From positions 1 to 36,534 of the forward strand of contig CASBQF010000387.1 of NCBI GenBank assembly GCA_949127775.1: a stretch of DNA of 36,534 bases. The letters run 5' to 3'. The notes below the pieces were generated by a model, which was not told where the DNA came from, did no database searches, and was given only the letters and a program-made list of their open reading frames with translations. Position numbers and translations under genes: made by a program. The stretch comes from Oscillatoriales cyanobacterium PMM_0080. Its GTDB lineage: Bacteria; Cyanobacteriota; Cyanobacteriia; Cyanobacteriales; Microcoleaceae. How positions within the stretch are numbered: the first letter of the stretch is position 1; every line of letters starts with the position of its first letter. This document shows, in pieces, positions 1 through 6,723 of the stretch.

Positions 1-123
<123 letters not shown>

Positions 124-142
124 TTTTTAGCCTTAGATAGAT

Positions 143-174
143 AAAAAGCGCTCCTAGAAATAGGGGCGCTTTTT
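143..174 (+). terminator. Rho-independent terminator of psbA
   Basis: A 14-bp stem (143-156 with 161-174) has a GAAA loop, one G-T wobble and a closing run of five T. It starts 19 bases after the psbA stop. The rest of the gap up to base 317 shows no further element that I recognise. Confidence 0.9.
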
Positions 175-317
175 GTTTGGGAAAATCTAATTTAACACTA
201 CTAATGCTTTGCAAAATTTGGGTTACAGTTTACCTAAATAAATTTTGCTCTGACCCTTTATGGACAACAAAAATCATTAAGATAGTTATAGAGTTCGCGA
301 AATAATGGACATTTTTT

Positions 318-974
318 TTAAACTTCATTCGGATCGATTTCTCTCAATAGCAAAGGAGTGTGTGATCCTTTAGAAAAGCGTCTATTATTGCGATCGACCT
401 CATCTTGAACACTTGACTCAATTAAAGCTTCTGATAGTTTTTCTCGACAGCAATCTCTTTCAGAATCATATTCACTAAATGATTCTGGACTGTCAAAAGA
501 AACTTTTTTTTCTTTACTCAGCCACCAACGCATACGTTCATGTCTGCCGCGAAAATCAGAATTTTTAGCTATTGAATTATTCCAATCAGCAATAATCCAA
601 GCTTCGATTTCCGGTGCGGCAAACCCAACAAATTTTTCGATATCAGCAGATTCTGGTATTTTGGATAACTCTACCAATATTTTTGATTTTTGTATTTGGG
701 AATCGCGACAATCCAAATCATCAAAAACTAAAATCAGGTCGCATTTATTTGGTTCTGCTTTTAAGGCGAGTGGCAATTCTTGCTTGATTTGGTCGATTAA
801 GCTTTTACCTGTTTTTCCATAACTACCTGCTTTATTAGGTTTCGGGCCGGGTTTTTGACGAACTGGTGTTTTTCGTTCAAATCTACACCCAGGAAAAGTT
901 TTTTCTAAAAAAGGCAACAAGCCTTTAACCTCAGATTCACCGCCTCCAGAGAAAACCCACACTACCACGGCCAT
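318..974 (-). CDS. DUF4276-type, TOPRIM-like protein paired with an ATPase
   Basis: 218 residues. The start is placed at 974, 13 bases inside the end of the upstream ATPase gene, which implies translational coupling. The N-terminus WVFSGGGESE (Glu13, Glu15) resembles the first acidic motif of TOPRIM folds. A second motif, LILVFDDLD (Asp85, Asp86, Asp88), matches the TOPRIM DxD, and PEIEAWIIAD (122-130) is typical of DUF4276-like proteins. OLD-family nucleases carry ATPase and TOPRIM in one chain, and PARIS splits them into AriA (ATPase) and AriB (DUF4435/TOPRIM). By analogy this could be the effector nuclease of a split OLD/PARIS-like defence module. That role is inference; the family assignment was made by eye. 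Confidence 0.65.
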   Translation of the reverse strand: MAVVVWVFSGGGESEVKGLLPFLEKTFPGCRFERKTPVRQKPGPKPNKAGSYGKTGKSLIDQIKQELPLALKAEPNKCDLILVFDDLDCRDSQIQKSKILVELSKIPESADIEKFVGFAAPEIEAWIIADWNNSIAKNSDFRGRHERMRWWLSKEKKVSFDSPESFSEYDSERDCCREKLSEALIESSVQDEVDRNNRRFSKGSHTPLLLREIDPNEV

Positions 975-2266
975 CCTCCAATACTTGGATCACCAACACG
1001 GTATAAGTCGCCTAATTCCCATCCCTCTTCAAGTTTTGGCTGTAGCATTTCTTTGGAAAGAGATTTGATTGAGAAATGTGTTCTATTTTCGGGATAAAAA
1101 CAAAGAACATTCTCTAAACAATCCGTAAAGTGATCTAAAAGGTCGGGACTATGTGTGGTAATAATTATCTGAGTTCTGGTGGCAGCTTTTTTAATCCATT
1201 CAGCTAAAATTGGCATCCACGAGACGTGCAATCCTAATTCCGGTTCATCAATAACTATCAAAGAGGGAAGAAGTGGAGAATGTAATATAGTTGCCCAACA
1301 AAGCATCCTGACAGTTCCATCCGACATTTCATTTAGGTAGAAAGGTTCTTTGATGTCTTCAAAATACCATTCTACAGTGAGTGATAGGCGACCAGAACGC
1401 ACAGGTTTCAGCCGACGAGTTTTTGGTAAAATCGACTTCATCGCCTCGTTAAGGCTATCTTCAAAGTCTATATTTTGGCTTAAATTATCCAAAACTAACG
1501 GCAGATTATCTCCCGATGCAGATAGGTAAATATCACTTCCACCTATTTTAGGCTCTACTGTTCTAATTAAATTTAAGTTCATATTATTGGCATTATAAAA
1601 TTGCCATTTTGAAATAAATTCAATTAATTCTCTTCTAATTTTGTAAACAGGTGTATTTTCTGGGGGTAATAGACTATTTTCAAGCAGTGTCGGAATTGTC
1701 AACAAACCCAAAGAATTTGTAGGAATGTTATCTAAAGGTTCAAACTGAGTTTGCCCTTGACCGGGAGAATTGTAAACAGATAAAAGTCCTTGCCCTAATT
1801 CTCTGTTATGCAATTTATAGTAATAGAAAGGTTGCTTGCTGGAAGAAGTTTCCTGCAAATTTTCTCCGTCATACAGATATTCTTCAGAGATGCTCGCCCT
1901 TACTTTTTGTCGATCGGTATAAAGTTTTAAATCAAGAATTGCGCTGTCTTTTTGAAGATTACCAGTTTGGTTAATTTGCGAAAAACAGTAAGCAATACTG
2001 ACTTTTGCTGGACTTTCAACATTGACATCTAAGATTTTATCACCGCCAAATTTAGAAATAGCATCCTCAAAACTACTCACGCCCCGATTTTCATCTGGAA
2101 TAGCGGTCAGGCAATCTTTTAAAAATTTTAAACAACTGATAAAATTGCTTTTCCCTGAACCGTTTGCTCCTATAAATATATTAAGGTTGTTTAAATTTAC
2201 AGATGGATCTAAGTGTAGATTTTTATAATTCTTGGTTGTCAGAAATCGAATAATTGGTTGATTCAT
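962..2266 (-). CDS. OLD/ABC-type AAA ATPase (AAA_15/AAA_21 class)
   Basis: 434 residues from the ATG at 2266. I chose this start because GGAG lies 9 bases upstream and the conserved fold begins at once (IIRFLTTKNYKNL); in-frame starts at 2287 and 2305 are possible. Visible motifs are Walker A GANGSGKSN (33-41), an ABC-signature-like MSDGT, Walker B LIVIDEPELGLH (Asp340, Glu341), and the H-loop TTHSPDLLDHF (His about 372). The long middle insertion is variable in this family. There is no TOPRIM domain in the chain, and the next gene, overlapping by 13 bases, appears to supply one. Such ATPases act as dimers that gate or sense in anti-phage systems such as OLD, Gabija, Septu and PARIS. The ATPase call is secure; the defence role is inferred. 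Confidence 0.85.
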   Translation of the reverse strand: MNQPIIRFLTTKNYKNLHLDPSVNLNNLNIFIGANGSGKSNFISCLKFLKDCLTAIPDENRGVSSFEDAISKFGGDKILDVNVESPAKVSIAYCFSQINQTGNLQKDSAILDLKLYTDRQKVRASISEEYLYDGENLQETSSSKQPFYYYKLHNRELGQGLLSVYNSPGQGQTQFEPLDNIPTNSLGLLTIPTLLENSLLPPENTPVYKIRRELIEFISKWQFYNANNMNLNLIRTVEPKIGGSDIYLSASGDNLPLVLDNLSQNIDFEDSLNEAMKSILPKTRRLKPVRSGRLSLTVEWYFEDIKEPFYLNEMSDGTVRMLCWATILHSPLLPSLIVIDEPELGLHVSWMPILAEWIKKAATRTQIIITTHSPDLLDHFTDCLENVLCFYPENRTHFSIKSLSKEMLQPKLEEGWELGDLYRVGDPSIGGWPW

Positions 2267-2346
2267 ACGATCGCGCTCCGGCTCCATAGCATAATCCGGG
2301 AACAATTAACTAATTTATTATGAAGTGAGGATTTGAGATATCTGTA

Positions 2347-2712
2347 CTAATTGTCCTTGTCCTCAGCAATCTTAGCCAGATCCATAAATTCTTCCAACAG
2401 TTTGAAAAATTTATCGAGGGCATCTTTTTCATCAACAGAAAAGAAGAGAATGATACTGTCCCATCCGTGAGTTGATGTAATTTGATATCTTTCCTGTATC
2501 CACTCTTGAAATCCATCAAGTTGTTGTTGTTGTTCTGTGTCGGGAAACCCAAGTTCCGCTCTAGCCGTCTCATATCCATCTAAAAATGCGCGCAGGCGGG
2601 TAATTGAACACTTGCCCAAATACATACCAGGTCTCTGTTTGATTCTTTGCAGTAAATCAAAGAAGTATTCATTTTTAACATCTAGTTTGTTAACATTAAC
2701 TTCGGCTAGCAT
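2347..2712 (-). CDS. Probable immunity protein for the papain-fold toxin-like protein
   Basis: 121 residues, starting 14 bases after the toxin-like gene stops, on the same strand; AGGA lies about 12 bases before the ATG. The sequence is acidic, soluble and has no membrane segment. Its most recognisable stretch is QRIKQRPGMYLGKCSITRLR (about 23-42), then FLDGY. I recall RPGMYLG proteins as small hypotheticals, often near toxins, but cannot name a Pfam family. The immunity role is inferred from size, acidity and toxin-then-immunity gene order. It is separated from the downstream ATPase start by 80 bases, so all four genes of the island may share a transcript. It could instead be an unrelated hypothetical protein. 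Confidence 0.5.
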   Translation of the reverse strand: MLAEVNVNKLDVKNEYFFDLLQRIKQRPGMYLGKCSITRLRAFLDGYETARAELGFPDTEQQQQLDGFQEWIQERYQITSTHGWDSIILFFSVDEKDALDKFFKLLEEFMDLAKIAEDKDN

Positions 2713-2726
2713 AAAAAAGTTTCCTA

Positions 2727-3104
2727 TTAAAAGTCTTCTTCTATTACTATAAACTGTAAATTATTGAATAGTTTACCATGAAATAGTAGGTTTGTCATCC
2801 ATTGCTCTCTGTTTAGCCCGTCCGGGTGATGGTTGTCAAAAATAGTTTCTATGTTGTTGATAACAATAGCGATTCCTTCGTGACGACCATTTACTGAAAT
2901 AGCCTCTCCCGGTACGCTATCATCATAAATGCCGCTGTTCCGACCTCTTCCGTATCCTGTGTACAGTTTTATGCGCTTTCCAGGAATTCCTTGACTGATC
3001 AAGTAATCTTTGATGTTGCTGGCGCACTCAATACATTTAAAGTTTTCATAACGATCGACAATAGCCTTGATTTCCAGTATTTGCTCAGCAGTAATCTCAC
3101 TCAT
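2727..3104 (-). CDS. Papain-fold toxin-like protein (Tox-PL-2 type), stand-alone
   Basis: 125 residues. The pattern fits the papain fold toxin 2 domain: a Cys motif FKCIECASNI (Cys24, Cys27), the His motif VNGRHEGIAI (His75), and the Asp/Asn motif FDNHHPDG (Asp90, Asn91), with catalytic residues in the order Cys, His, Asp. Proteins with this domain are predicted cysteine proteases, deamidases or transglutaminases and are usually C-terminal tips of polymorphic toxins. Here the domain makes up the whole protein, with no secretion signal or delivery domain visible, so it may act inside the cell or be a detached toxin tip. No Shine-Dalgarno sequence is seen. A MITE-like repeat begins six bases upstream of the start codon, so its leader and promoter would lie in or beyond that repeat. 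Confidence 0.65.
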   Translation of the reverse strand: MSEITAEQILEIKAIVDRYENFKCIECASNIKDYLISQGIPGKRIKLYTGYGRGRNSGIYDDSVPGEAISVNGRHEGIAIVINNIETIFDNHHPDGLNREQWMTNLLFHGKLFNNLQFIVIEEDF

Positions 3105-3109
3105 ATCTT

Positions 3110-3210
3110 ATATGAATTCCGTCAGCATCGGAATCATTCATCCCTCTTCTCTCTCTGTGTCCTCTGTGTTCTCTGCGGTTAAATCATTCCGATACAACCC
3201 GAATTGATAT
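3110..3210. repeat. MITE-like element, family A copy 1
   Basis: About 101 bases with imperfect terminal inverted repeats: ATATGAATTCCG at the left and CCCGAATTGATAT at the right, followed inward by ATCGGAATCATT and AATCATTCCGAT. The core is a pyrimidine-rich CTCTGTGTTCTCTGCGGTT. Related copies lie at 8097-8178 (inverted, truncated) and 15112-15206. It abuts the start of the toxin-like gene. The rest of the gap to 3348 shows no gene. Confidence 0.7.
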
Positions 3211-3348
3211 TACTCATACCAAGAAATTGACTTGCACCGATGCCCAGAAACCGAGTTTTCACCAGAATTATTCGCTGTAGCCCGCAAATTGGGTAAAAAA
3301 CCCGGTTTCTTAGTCGCAGTGTACCCAACCTAAAATTAATCTAAAAAA

Positions 3349-3382
3349 TTAAAAGGTAAAAAATTAATTTTTTACCTTTTAA
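3349..3382. terminator. 34-bp perfect palindrome, probable fabF terminator
   Basis: TTAAAAGGTAAAAAATT is followed directly by its exact reverse complement, giving 34 bp of dyad symmetry with T-runs on both strands. It lies 30 bases beyond the fabF stop, so it probably terminates fabF and could work in both directions. Two copies of the heptamer TCTCGAC follow. Confidence 0.65.
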
Positions 3383-3411
3383 CTCTCGACTCTCGACTTT
3401 CAAATTGTCCG

Positions 3412-4665
3412 TTACCGAACAAACTTCTTGAATGCCAGCGTCACGTTGTGGCCACCAAATCCAAAGGAATTCGACAGCGCCACATCAACTTTTAGATCGC
3501 GACTGGTATGCGGCACATAGTCCAAATCGCACTCTGGATCGGGATTTTCTAGATTGATTGTCGGCGGGATTTTGTCGTTGGCGATCGCCATTACCGCAGC
3601 TACCGCCTCAATTCCCCCAGAACCACCCAAAAGATGACCGGTCATTGACTTGGTAGAACTAATGGCTACTTTGTAAGCATGGTCTCCCAAAGTCTTTTTA
3701 ATCGCCTTCGTTTCCGTAGAATCGTTGGGAAGCGTACTCGTCCCGTGAGCATTGATGTAGCTCACCATATCTGGTGTCAAACCACCATCCTTGAGCGCTA
3801 AAGCGATCGCCCGTGATGCACCCTCACCCCCCGGTACTGGGGATGTCATGTGATACGCATCGCAGGTTAAACCGTAGCCGACGATTTCTGCGTAAATCTT
3901 CGCGCCACGGGCTAGAGCGTGTTCCATTTCTTCTAGAATCAGAATGCCAGCACCTTCGCCGACGACAAAACCATCCCGATCGCGATCGAACGGACGGCAA
4001 GCATGAGTCGGGTCATCGTTGCGAGTCGAAAGCGCCCTCGCCGCAGCAAAACCAGCCACGCACAAAGGTGTCACAGCAGCTTCCGTACCGCCGCAAATCA
4101 TCGCTTGGGCATAACCGCCCTGCACTAGGCGAAACGCATCACCTACCGCATTTGATCCCGCAGCGCAAGCCGTAACTACGCAAGAGTTCGGCCCCTTTGC
4201 GCCCGTTTGAATTGCCGTCAGGCCAGCAGCCATATTCGCAATCATCATCGGAATCATAAACGGGCTGCATCGATCGGGGCCGCGAGTCAGATAGATCTCT
4301 TGTTGGTCTTCCAAAACCTTCAGCCCACCAATGCCAGTGCCAAGAATGACACCCACCTGTTCTGCGTTCAGGTCATTAATCTCAAATTTCGCATCAGCCA
4401 GAGCCTGTTTGCTGGCTGATACCCCAAATTGAGCAAAGCGATCCATCCGCTTTGCTTCCTTGCGCTCTAAATAGTCGTGAGGGTCATAACCCTTAACCTC
4501 TGCGGCAATGCGACAGTCGTGCCGCGACGGGTCGAATAAGGTGATCGGGCCGATGCCATTCTTCCCAGCAAGCAACCCGTCCCAATATTCAGACAAGGTA
4601 TTGCCGATCGGTGTAATCGCGCCTAGACCGGTAATAACAACGCGCTTACGCTCAAAATTTGTCAT
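3412..4665 (-). CDS. fabF: 3-oxoacyl-[acyl-carrier-protein] synthase II (KAS II)
   Basis: 417 residues, normal length for FabF. It elongates fatty acids by condensing malonyl-ACP with acyl-ACP in the cytosol. The start MTNFERKRVVITGLG matches the family N-terminus. The catalytic triad is visible: Cys167 in VTACAAGSNA, His307 in INAHGTSTLPND and His344 in MTGHLLGGSG, with Lys339 just before. Both thiolase-fold halves are complete. In cyanobacteria acpP normally lies directly upstream of fabF. Here a TnpB-like gene and a possible terminator (4678-4737) stand between them, so fabF may need its own promoter or depend on readthrough. No clear Shine-Dalgarno sequence precedes the ATG. Confidence 0.97.
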   Translation of the reverse strand: MTNFERKRVVITGLGAITPIGNTLSEYWDGLLAGKNGIGPITLFDPSRHDCRIAAEVKGYDPHDYLERKEAKRMDRFAQFGVSASKQALADAKFEINDLNAEQVGVILGTGIGGLKVLEDQQEIYLTRGPDRCSPFMIPMMIANMAAGLTAIQTGAKGPNSCVVTACAAGSNAVGDAFRLVQGGYAQAMICGGTEAAVTPLCVAGFAAARALSTRNDDPTHACRPFDRDRDGFVVGEGAGILILEEMEHALARGAKIYAEIVGYGLTCDAYHMTSPVPGGEGASRAIALALKDGGLTPDMVSYINAHGTSTLPNDSTETKAIKKTLGDHAYKVAISSTKSMTGHLLGGSGGIEAVAAVMAIANDKIPPTINLENPDPECDLDYVPHTSRDLKVDVALSNSFGFGGHNVTLAFKKFVR

Positions 4666-4677
4666 GATTTCAGTTTC

Positions 4678-4737
4678 AAAAAATTAAACACCGCTTCTAA
4701 AAACCTAGGTTTACCTAGGTATAAACTTCTGCGGTGT
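4678..4737 (-). terminator. Stem-loop between the TnpB-like gene and fabF: element end or terminator
   Basis: ACACCGC (4688-4694) pairs with GCGGTGT (4731-4737). Inside are two copies of the palindrome ACCTAGGT (4703-4710 and 4713-4720) that can pair with each other or fold alone. On the minus strand the stem is followed by a T-run (4678-4683). It could be the terminator of the TnpB-like transcript or the subterminal hairpin expected at IS200/IS605-type ends. Confidence 0.5.
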
Positions 4738-4756
4738 AAGTTTAAGCAAGTCTTCT

Positions 4757-6232
4757 CTAGTGCGCGAGCGCTTCCCCACAGACCTCTTTGGGGTTGACCA
4801 GAAAACTCCTGTTAGAAACGGTATAGTAATCGTGTCTACGATTCACTATACCGGATTGCTTGGTCTTTCTATTCAGTTGGGCCCATTGAGTCCATACGTG
4901 CTTGTTTGAGTTCACTTCAACATAGGCGGTTATGGAGTCTGGGAGTTTTTCGCTTAATCTCATACCTCTACGGGCAATCGCTAAAGCAGCGGCTTCATCG
5001 CTAGCAAGTCCGTACATCTTGAGGTATTTGAATAAACCAATAATACTTGTAAAGGCGGGATTGACTGCGATCAATTCAATTCCACGATTACTAAGGATTG
5101 ACCTCAATTGTTTGTAGAATTGATTGTAAGCCCAACTTGAGAGCATTCGGGCATACTTGCGACTTGTTTCGCCTAACCGCTGTTTCTTGTCTGAAAATTC
5201 TAATTCTTCACAAACAATAGGACACTGAAATTTTGTAGCCAATACTGCCAACTGCAAGCAGGTATCAACAATTTGAGCCTGTTGTGCGCCACTAGGCAAG
5301 CCCAACTGTAAAGGTATTTGATTTTTGGCTTTGAGATTGCCATCAGCATCAACATAAGCCCAACCAATTGAGCCTGGGTTCATGTCGATACCAATACAGC
5401 CATAAGCTCGATCAATAGATTGAGGCTTAACGGGACTTGGTGTAAAAGATATCGCTACTTTCCAGCTATTATTCTTTTTGAATAAATGCCAAGTCTTTGC
5501 ACCGCAGGTCGGCAATCGGTTAATATTGCGATTAAAATCACCAATTTCGGCTGAAATGCTTTTGCCAAAACTTCCTTCAAGACACGCCGGAACTCTAACT
5601 TTTAAGATAGAACCATTCCATTGAGCGATGCCATTTCCCAGTGTTTCGTCTTTAGATCCCACGAAGAACACTTGATCGCGAGGTACGAACACCTTGATCG
5701 GTGCTACTTTTAAAGTAGCTAGCTTGTTCTGAACAAGGAAAAGTTTACGCTTTTTGTGATGAATTTGAAAGTGTAAATTTTGCCAATTAGTTTCCCTGTA
5801 TTTGAGTGAACAAGACAAAGGAAAGCCACAACCTGTTTTACTATTGCGCCAATTCTTTTTGGAGTAAAACTTGTTTGCTGCTTTCAGTTTTTTCTCTGCC
5901 TTCCCCAACCAGACTTCAATCGACTTTGCCTTACCCGTTAATGTTTTGATGTGCAATGAACGATGTTCTTTGGCACTGTCAACCTTACCTTTAGCGTAGG
6001 CAATGACCCCATTTGCGTGACGCTTATTTATGAAGTAGGTTGTTTGGAGGTGGCTGTTCCATTTCGACTTATTGAATTTGGCACAAGTCAATAGTTGAGC
6101 AACCGTCTCAATTGCAGCCAGCTTAAAGATAGGGGCAAAGGCGGTTAAAAACATCTCCATCTGACTGAAGCCCAAAGCATTCAGTTCTGATTCGGGAGTG
6201 GGCAGTCCTTTGATGTAGGTTAGGGATGGCAT
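4757..6232 (-). CDS. TnpB-like (IS200/IS605 OrfB-related) RuvC nuclease lacking the zinc ribbon
   Basis: 491 residues. GAGAGG lies 8 bases before the ATG. The C-terminal half shows a RuvC fold: YGCIGIDMNPGSIGWAYVD (Asp283), PIVCEELEF (Glu342 or 343) and GLASDEAAALAIARR (Asp412). These acidic residues match the TnpB/Cas12 catalytic triad, so the nuclease looks intact. TnpB normally has a CxxC...CxxC zinc ribbon between RuvC-II and III, after a TS motif. Here the corresponding stretch, NPAFTSIIGLFKYLKMYGL, has no cysteine. The basic N-terminal half would be the RNA/DNA-binding part. No TnpA transposase gene is nearby, so it is at best non-autonomous. It separates acpP from fabF. Proteins like this are commonly annotated as TnpB-related in cyanobacteria; their activity is not known to me. 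Confidence 0.8.
   Translation of the reverse strand: MPSLTYIKGLPTPESELNALGFSQMEMFLTAFAPIFKLAAIETVAQLLTCAKFNKSKWNSHLQTTYFINKRHANGVIAYAKGKVDSAKEHRSLHIKTLTGKAKSIEVWLGKAEKKLKAANKFYSKKNWRNSKTGCGFPLSCSLKYRETNWQNLHFQIHHKKRKLFLVQNKLATLKVAPIKVFVPRDQVFFVGSKDETLGNGIAQWNGSILKVRVPACLEGSFGKSISAEIGDFNRNINRLPTCGAKTWHLFKKNNSWKVAISFTPSPVKPQSIDRAYGCIGIDMNPGSIGWAYVDADGNLKAKNQIPLQLGLPSGAQQAQIVDTCLQLAVLATKFQCPIVCEELEFSDKKQRLGETSRKYARMLSSWAYNQFYKQLRSILSNRGIELIAVNPAFTSIIGLFKYLKMYGLASDEAAALAIARRGMRLSEKLPDSITAYVEVNSNKHVWTQWAQLNRKTKQSGIVNRRHDYYTVSNRSFLVNPKEVCGEALAH
4762..4853 (-). ncRNA. Candidate omega (guide) RNA segment at the 3' end of the TnpB-like gene
   Basis: TnpB guide RNAs overlap the 3' end of tnpB and extend to the element's right end. 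In the last 100 bases of this gene there are three hairpins: CGGTATAGTAATCGT (4819-4833) pairing with 4838-4853 over 15 bp with one bulged base and a 4-base loop; CCCCA (4774-4778) with TGGGG (4789-4793); and a GCG/CGC stem at 4762-4771. Such pairing inside a coding region is unusual. The RNA's true ends cannot be set from sequence alone. Confidence 0.4.
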
Positions 6233-6410
6233 TGATTCGACCTCTCAATGTGGTTATATCTGTTCAGATCAAAATCTTAGAAGTTTGTCCTTTAATTCCG
6301 CTAATTCCCCAATGCTGAGCCAGTCTGTCCATGTCATACCCAGAATCTATCCTCTGAATCATCGGTAAATCTAGGTATTTTGGCAACAGTAGGCAACCCA
6401 GAACGCAGAA

Positions 6411-6449
6411 CAAAAGAGGAGTTTTTAGTTTTCTAAGTTCTCTCCTCTT
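6411..6449 (-). terminator. Rho-independent terminator of acpP
   Basis: AAGAGGAG (6414-6421) pairs with CTCCTCTT (6442-6449), an 8-bp stem with a 20-base loop, followed on the minus strand by a T-run. It begins 20 bases after the acpP stop. If active, it separates acpP from the TnpB-like gene and fabF. The segment 6233-6410 holds no gene I can support; it may include the other end of the inserted element. Confidence 0.6.
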
Positions 6450-6468
6450 AGGGGAAAAGACAGGTATT

Positions 6469-6723
6469 TTATGCTTTTGGGGTTGCAAGTTTGCTGCTGA
6501 TGAAATCTACAGAAGCTTGAACCGTAGTAATTGCTTCGGCTGCTTCGTCGGGAATTTCAATATCAAACTCTTCTTCCAACGCCATAACCAGCTCTACTGT
6601 ATCTAGGGAGTCTGCTCCTAAATCGTTGGCAAAGTTGGCTTCGGGCTTGACTTCGGTTGGATCAACTTCGAGTTGATCTGCCACAATTTTCTTGACTCTA
6701 GCAAAAATGTCGTCTTGACTCAT
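6469..6723 (-). CDS. acpP: Acyl carrier protein
   Basis: 84 residues, normal for ACP. The phosphopantetheine attachment site is [10 protein letters not shown] with Ser39; the holo-ACP synthase adds the 4'-phosphopantetheine arm there. The protein is strongly acidic and has the expected helices. The upstream leader on the minus strand contains GGAGACA before the ATG. It carries acyl chains for fatty-acid and lipid A synthesis in the cytosol. The following fabF is the usual partner, but here it is more than 1.8 kb away because of the TnpB-like gene. Confidence 0.97.

Follow-up and report, generated by a model that had tools for sequence, protein, structure and literature searches.

The window analysed here, a stretch of 36,534 nucleotides from an Oscillatoriales cyanobacterium, opens with the 3' end of psbA (1-123, plus strand), and between it and fabF (3412-4665, minus strand) lies a variable slot (124..3411). 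The slot holds two minus-strand genes that overlap by 13 nt (962..974). The larger (962..2266; 434 aa, ATG at 2266) encodes an OLD-type ABC ATPase of the AAA_21 family (PF13304, 2.9e-36), similar to HEC-01A and AriA. Read from this ATG it has a complete set of intact ABC motifs, as the initial annotation had claimed: Walker A GANGSGKS (residues 33-40; 2147..2170), the signature-like MSDGTVR (residues 314-320; 1307..1327), of which SDGTVR is invariant in 22 rows, Walker B LIVIDEPE (residues 336-343; 1238..1261) and the H-loop THS (residues 371-373; 1148..1156), all on the minus strand. The smaller gene (318..974, minus strand; 218 aa as assembled) encodes a DUF4276-type, putatively Toprim-like partner. 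In it we located E13-x-E15 after a GGG (930..938), near the place of EGxxE in other DUF4276 proteins, the Toprim DxD-like DDLD (residues 85-88; 711..722) and E122-x-E124 of a PExE motif (603..611), where the following E-A/S-W resembles other DUF4276. The overlapping arrangement described at the outset is kept wherever both genes are present (26 loci); in a more distant relative (L054) the overlap is 4 nt. Next to the pair stand a 121-aa gene and a Tox-PL-2 papain-fold gene (together 2347..3104, minus strand; PF15643, 2.6e-37), a separate unit sharing the slot. A promoter and terminator scan found sites no more frequent than in shuffled sequences. Between fabF and acpP lies a 491-aa protein (4757-6232, minus strand) that looks TnpB/RuvC-like by eye and has no Pfam match up to 0.001.

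The window's partner stops at residue 218, whereas all 22 relatives matched over their full length reach 235-262 residues, extending about 20 residues past the window stop with a conserved tail. In the window this tail is still in frame behind the stop at 318-320 (20 codons plus stop, 255..317, minus strand), and the genome match reads through a single TAA at 36.2 bits. The clade tail resembles that of some canonical DUF4276 proteins. This comparison used 22 of 27 loci, leaving out three at contig ends (L026, L028, L029), L027, whose partner is broken near residue 149, and L032, with only 28 residues matched. Hence the gene end originally placed at 318 holds as a stop codon but not as the natural end of the gene. 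The stop may be either genuine or an assembly error; its position before a conserved tail is a new observation. Because the tails are full-length in the relatives, intact copies exist there; the window's own effector, with its C-terminal tail cut off, may have lost some or all of its activity. Decay affects both genes. A full-length ATPase accompanies a broken or missing partner in five copies (window, G245, G116, G388, G284), and a broken ATPase accompanies a full-length partner in three (L018, L013 and, by frameshift, L009; L013 and L033 seem to be one genome), in a tally that omits copies with both genes affected or with remnants only (G051, G278/L027, G105, G233, G251, G390). The idea that the effector is lost first was dropped at five cases against three.

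A scan of genome contigs gave 27 homologous loci, all cyanobacterial, with best-segment identities of 40-89%. Sequence of both genes is present in 26 of them, some copies being broken, and the sole exception (L029) is a contig fragment. Whole-genome searches across the phylum detected the partner in 27 of 386 genomes and the ATPase in 27 of 373, with 25 genomes common to the two lists, and co-occurrence of the pair across genomes, proposed as a check by the initial annotation, was thus confirmed. The G155 ATPase sits at the beginning of a contig, G245 encodes an ATPase of full length with no partner detected, G251 retains a partner remnant only, and G382 is absent from the ATPase list, yet its locus (L045) shows a neighbouring ATPase ORF. 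The ATPase showed dN/dS of 0.12-0.41 and the partner of 0.18-0.40 in 12 tested copy pairs, which indicates purifying selection; together with the 27 homologous loci at 40-89% identity this argues that the two ORFs are not there by chance. Protein distances of the ATPase and the partner correlate (Mantel r 0.95, n=20, reached in 0 of 2000 permutations; r 0.89 once the most distant row is removed). The ATPase alignment omits L013 (internal stop), L009 (frameshift) and the broken or partial L018, L027, L029 and L032. In a wider search, a script pattern placed a Walker A ORF on the same short locus in 28 of 29 DUF4276 loci (L063-L091, of which L089 and L090 belong to the window clade). An alignment that mixed in distant paralogs kept two invariant columns only, owing to that mixing. 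The plasmid search gave no match, and pattern scans of viral contigs gave no relative of the window clade; two viral contigs (L140 and L204 being one and the same) carry another DUF4276 group.

Within the genus, partner sequence, be it only a trace, occurs in 10 of 29 genomes, always on the fabF contig, one copy (G336) being split across two contigs. The fabF side of the slot was read in 26 genomes including the window (G386, G392 and G406 of the 29 were left out). Eleven of these 26 slots carry ATPase and/or partner sequence, remnants included (window, L181, L193-L200, L202; the copy of L181 is cut by the contig end). The Tox-PL-2/121-aa pair stands beside this sequence at three sites (window, L194 and L200, where the partner is reduced to a remnant) and is missing from the other eight. 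Both genes of that pair occur alone in 5/26 slots (L178, L179, L180, L183, L192), a single piece of it in 3/26 (L185, L189, L191), and none of the four genes in 7/26 (L182, L184, L186, L187, L188, L190, L201), three of which (L186, L187, L201) have psbA within about 450 nt after fabF. Presence of the module is thus patchy: the slot it occupies is exchangeable, and among close relatives some sites are empty and some copies decayed. A four-gene operon with the Tox-PL-2 and 121-aa genes was rejected because each pair is found without the other in the genus. The 121-aa gene follows the Tox-PL-2 gene and has no family match; the two form an independent unit gained and lost in the slot and sometimes decayed. 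The slot of L184 houses a DUF433/DUF5615-type pair (4899-5665, minus strand; the DUF5615 match is just below the cut-off). In L199 an insertion with two transposase-like ORFs, recognized by eye, sits inside the partner gene, residue 180 being matched on both sides.

Outside the genus the pair lies in different gene neighbourhoods. From 4 of 12 listed loci, ten neighbouring ORFs were compared with PADLOC and ten, partly the same, with Pfam, a survey of examples rather than a measure of enrichment. In L031 (Pseudanabaena) a second OLD-type ATPase pair lies directly upstream (3897-6668; NsnB 9e-46, PDC-M55B 2.4e-7), and 0.5-3.5 kb downstream follow BrnT and ParE toxins. About 3-5 kb downstream of the pair, L016 has a type II methylase and a restriction enzyme; L017 has a neighbouring PtuB-like HNH gene and L010 a caspase-like gene. 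Also among the scanned neighbours are some ORFs without any match and housekeeping genes, which encode a CobN-type chelatase in L031 and, in L010, a subunit of DNA polymerase III.

DUF4276 (PF14103) is the sole Pfam match of the partner, at 3.7e-4 and 21.2 bits against a gathering cut-off of 30.2 bits; four of seven full-length relatives score above that cut-off, as does the window DNA when read through the stop (36.2 bits), and a clade profile that includes full-length relatives matched DUF4276 with 98.2% probability (P 4.5e-14). In profile comparisons, 26 rows of canonical DUF4276 matched OLD-like_TOPRIM at 64%, DUF4435 at 36% and long OLD at 14%, and 58 rows matched them at 79%, 63% and 31%; with the clade added, the DUF4276 profile gave 68%, 15% and 31%, respectively. 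Reversed DUF4276 controls stayed at or below 0.2% for the 26-row and 58-row sets and at or below 0.3% overall. The blocks aligned between the canonical DUF4276 and Toprim profiles are EG-TE, DxD and E-E, the short Toprim proteins in these profiles coming in 19 of 20 cases from one family of genomes. The wide profile sets omit L069, L073, L078, L082, L084, L089 and L090 (truncated, interrupted, ambiguous or clade members), and L245, for which no ORF was picked. The clade profile alone reached at most 0.5% against the Toprim profiles, no better than its reversed controls (at most 0.4%), with 0.2% against DUF4435, and the window partner gave no match to DUF4435 up to E 1. A Toprim fold of the partner is likely, supported indirectly by the profile comparison through canonical DUF4276. 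The initial annotation had looked to structure prediction for this fold, and there the outcome was mixed. AlphaFold2 models of the truncated window partner had pLDDT of 65.5 and 70.3, the latter with block means of 74-91 for residues 1-40 and 61-120, and the predicted order (beta-alpha-beta-alpha-beta-alpha-beta) is compatible with Toprim. Foldseek searches with these models gave nothing below 1e-3, and no named Toprim was among the 50 matches listed per search, many entries of one search being nameless. Searched against PDB sequences, the partner profile found no match, and once distant paralogs were added to it, two weak unrelated chains only.

The N-terminal active-site residues set the window clade apart from other DUF4276. 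None of the 40 clade rows (23 of the first alignment and 17 further ORFs, some perhaps from the same genomes) has the Toprim glutamate that ends strand 1: its column holds Gly (Ser in L031), and the preceding one Ser or Ala. In other DUF4276 proteins a Glu occupies the aligned column in 54 of 58 (EG-TE, EGGGD, EEPS and similar), the exceptions being L241 and L246, with Glu one place later, and L234 and L244, with Thr. Strand 1 was placed by MAFFT and by one hhalign run reaching residue 1, later hhalign matches starting at residue 56. At position 13, 35 of the 40 clade rows carry Glu, L023 has Asp and the other four have H, V, Q or P; E15, DDLD and PExE occur in every one of the 40. DDLD also falls at the end of a predicted strand (residues 80-86), in keeping with the Toprim DxD that follows strand 3. 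Two sequences that a script filter left outside the 40 rows, L040 and L058, likewise start with (S/A)GGG; L040 carries DDLD and PELE, and L058 has lost that part. Consequently, of the two partner motifs initially reported, the DxD is borne out by an invariant DDLD, and the N-terminal Glu motif turns out to be (S/A)GGGExE rather than EGxxE, with the strand 1 glutamate absent. The clade's replacement of this glutamate by Ser/Ala-Gly is a new observation as well. A further DUF4276 group, made up of L234 and L244, has Thr (VTGxTEE) where the Toprim glutamate would stand, so that this residue may have been lost more than once among DUF4276.

E26 of AriB is presumably the same glutamate as that at the end of Toprim strand 1. 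According to a passage of PMC12409363, AriB E26A yielded no tRNA fragments, unlike the wild type. For Bp OLD, a section of PMC6755086 assigns E400 and the DxD to metal A, and E404, T506 and E508 to metal B; there, single metal-ligand mutants, E400A among them, showed no discernible loss of cleavage, whereas triple mutants no longer acted on linear DNA.

Among known systems, the ATPase matches PADLOC HEC-01A best (PDLC04177, 1.8e-49, residues 34-447 of a 447-aa ORF), above AriA (9.5e-35), and AriA chains are its best PDB relatives by sequence profile (8.2e-8). The partner matches HEC-01B weakly (1.5e-4, 19.6 bits); for three of its full-length relatives in the clade the values lie between 3.6e-6 and 1.7e-4. 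The genome itself contains five DUF4276 genes including that of the window, and the other four (L001, L002, L003, L005) match HEC-01B at 8e-95, 5e-88, 1.8e-21 and 3.7e-5. Three of those four adjoin a relative of the window ATPase and the fourth an ATPase-like ORF (by eye); the two neighbouring ATPases scanned match HEC-01A at 2.5e-173 and 1.8e-73. A DUF4435 protein (L094) is also encoded in this genome. The view of the locus as an OLD/PARIS-related module accordingly stands for the type of the ATPase, with AriA as its best solved relative, and for the DUF4276 type of the partner; the view that it is none of the named systems does not, as PADLOC names such pairs HEC-01, an anti-phage candidate of two genes.

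The resemblance to HEC-01 (PADLOC-DB; Hma-embedded candidate) lies in a HEC-01A-type ATPase adjoining a DUF4276 (HEC-01B) gene, although the window partner is weakly matched, is without the Toprim glutamate and is a truncated copy. With PARIS the locus shares the two-gene split of an OLD-type ABC ATPase and a partner that is putatively of Toprim type, and by sequence no solved structure comes closer to the ATPase than AriA, but the window partner is DUF4276 rather than DUF4435 and has no EG motif. PARIS responds to phage proteins such as Ocr by cleaving tRNA. OLD nucleases (P2 Old, GajA) likewise combine an ABC ATPase with a Toprim-like catalytic part, a DxD and a downstream acidic residue; unlike these, the window encodes two proteins instead of one and lacks the invariant Toprim glutamate, E400 in the Bp OLD section of PMC6755086. 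On sequence grounds we therefore file the pair as a divergent HEC-01-like variant and not as PARIS, whose DUF4435 the partner does not match, nor as an established Toprim nuclease, since the glutamate is absent and the fold likely at most. The architecture of an ATPase with a Toprim partner is already known from OLD and PARIS. A passage of PMC12839542 treats TOPRIM-linked OLD-ABC modules, including PARIS and Gabija, as an acknowledged class, and part of an OLD review notes the split OLD form (PMC10568477). Under HEC-01 we found a defence passage listing systems (PMC12724379), and DUF4276 as a word had no occurrence in the literature searched.

With moderate confidence we read the pair as a divergent cyanobacterial split OLD-ABC plus DUF4276 (HEC-01) system, most likely an accessory anti-phage module. 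By analogy we infer an abortive defence function, in which the ABC ATPase would assemble and hold or sense, as in PARIS, and the DUF4276 protein would be a metal-dependent Toprim-type nuclease, released or activated by the ATPase upon infection; the activated nuclease would cut nucleic acid (tRNA or DNA) and halt growth. Tentatively, the clade could represent a rewired Toprim subfamily in which the metal site is rebuilt without the first glutamate, via E15 (and mostly E13), DDLD and ExE. It is unlikely, in our judgement, that the clade partner has instead lost its nuclease chemistry and serves, as a decoy, inhibitor or adaptor, in binding or regulation for an ATPase that is itself the active part. 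Loss of the Toprim glutamate in 40/40 clade rows would fit such a role, as would the full-length ATPase of G245, where the partner was not detected, and precedents are given in two papers: the Toprim of E. coli YbjD is dispensable and its ATPase essential for anti-phage phenotypes (PMC13261556), and structural Toprim folds without metal ligands exist (PMC6755086). However, the invariance of DDLD, PExE and E15 suggests that a metal site is kept, and since single ligand mutants of Bp OLD, E400A included, still cleave (same section of PMC6755086), the loss of one ligand need not kill the enzyme.

A toxin-antitoxin-type stability module, with the partner as toxin and the ATPase as neutralizer and no part in phage defence, seems improbable to us and overlaps with the anti-phage reading. 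Although the slot also houses other toxin-like modules (the Tox-PL-2 pair and, in L184, the DUF433/DUF5615 pair), the decay pattern gives it no particular support, with the ATPase alone intact in five copies and the partner alone in three, a plasmid match was not found, and PARIS, of the same architecture, is a defence system. Least of all do we expect a cellular role such as DNA repair or the cell cycle, as PMC12796447 reports for the archaeal OLD-family ATPase Cran1. The chromosomal position beside fabF is stable within the genus and no mobile gene lies within the window slot itself, but the module is absent from most genomes searched (27/386 in the phylum and 10/29 in the genus carry the partner), its copies are often decayed, and its surroundings differ in other groups.

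Pairs of an ABC ATPase and a Toprim-type effector are a recurrent layer of bacterial immunity, of which the DUF4276 pairs are a hardly described part. The first Toprim glutamate is otherwise near-universal. If the subfamily is indeed rewired, the OLD/PARIS-type effector of the clade would differ in its metal requirement, its substrate or the chemistry of its cut, and the clade would offer a natural test of whether the Toprim glutamate is required in split OLD systems. A conserved clade without the catalytic glutamate, along with a slot in which close relatives differ in whether the module is there and how far it has decayed, would make this pair a tractable case for studying the role of the effector.
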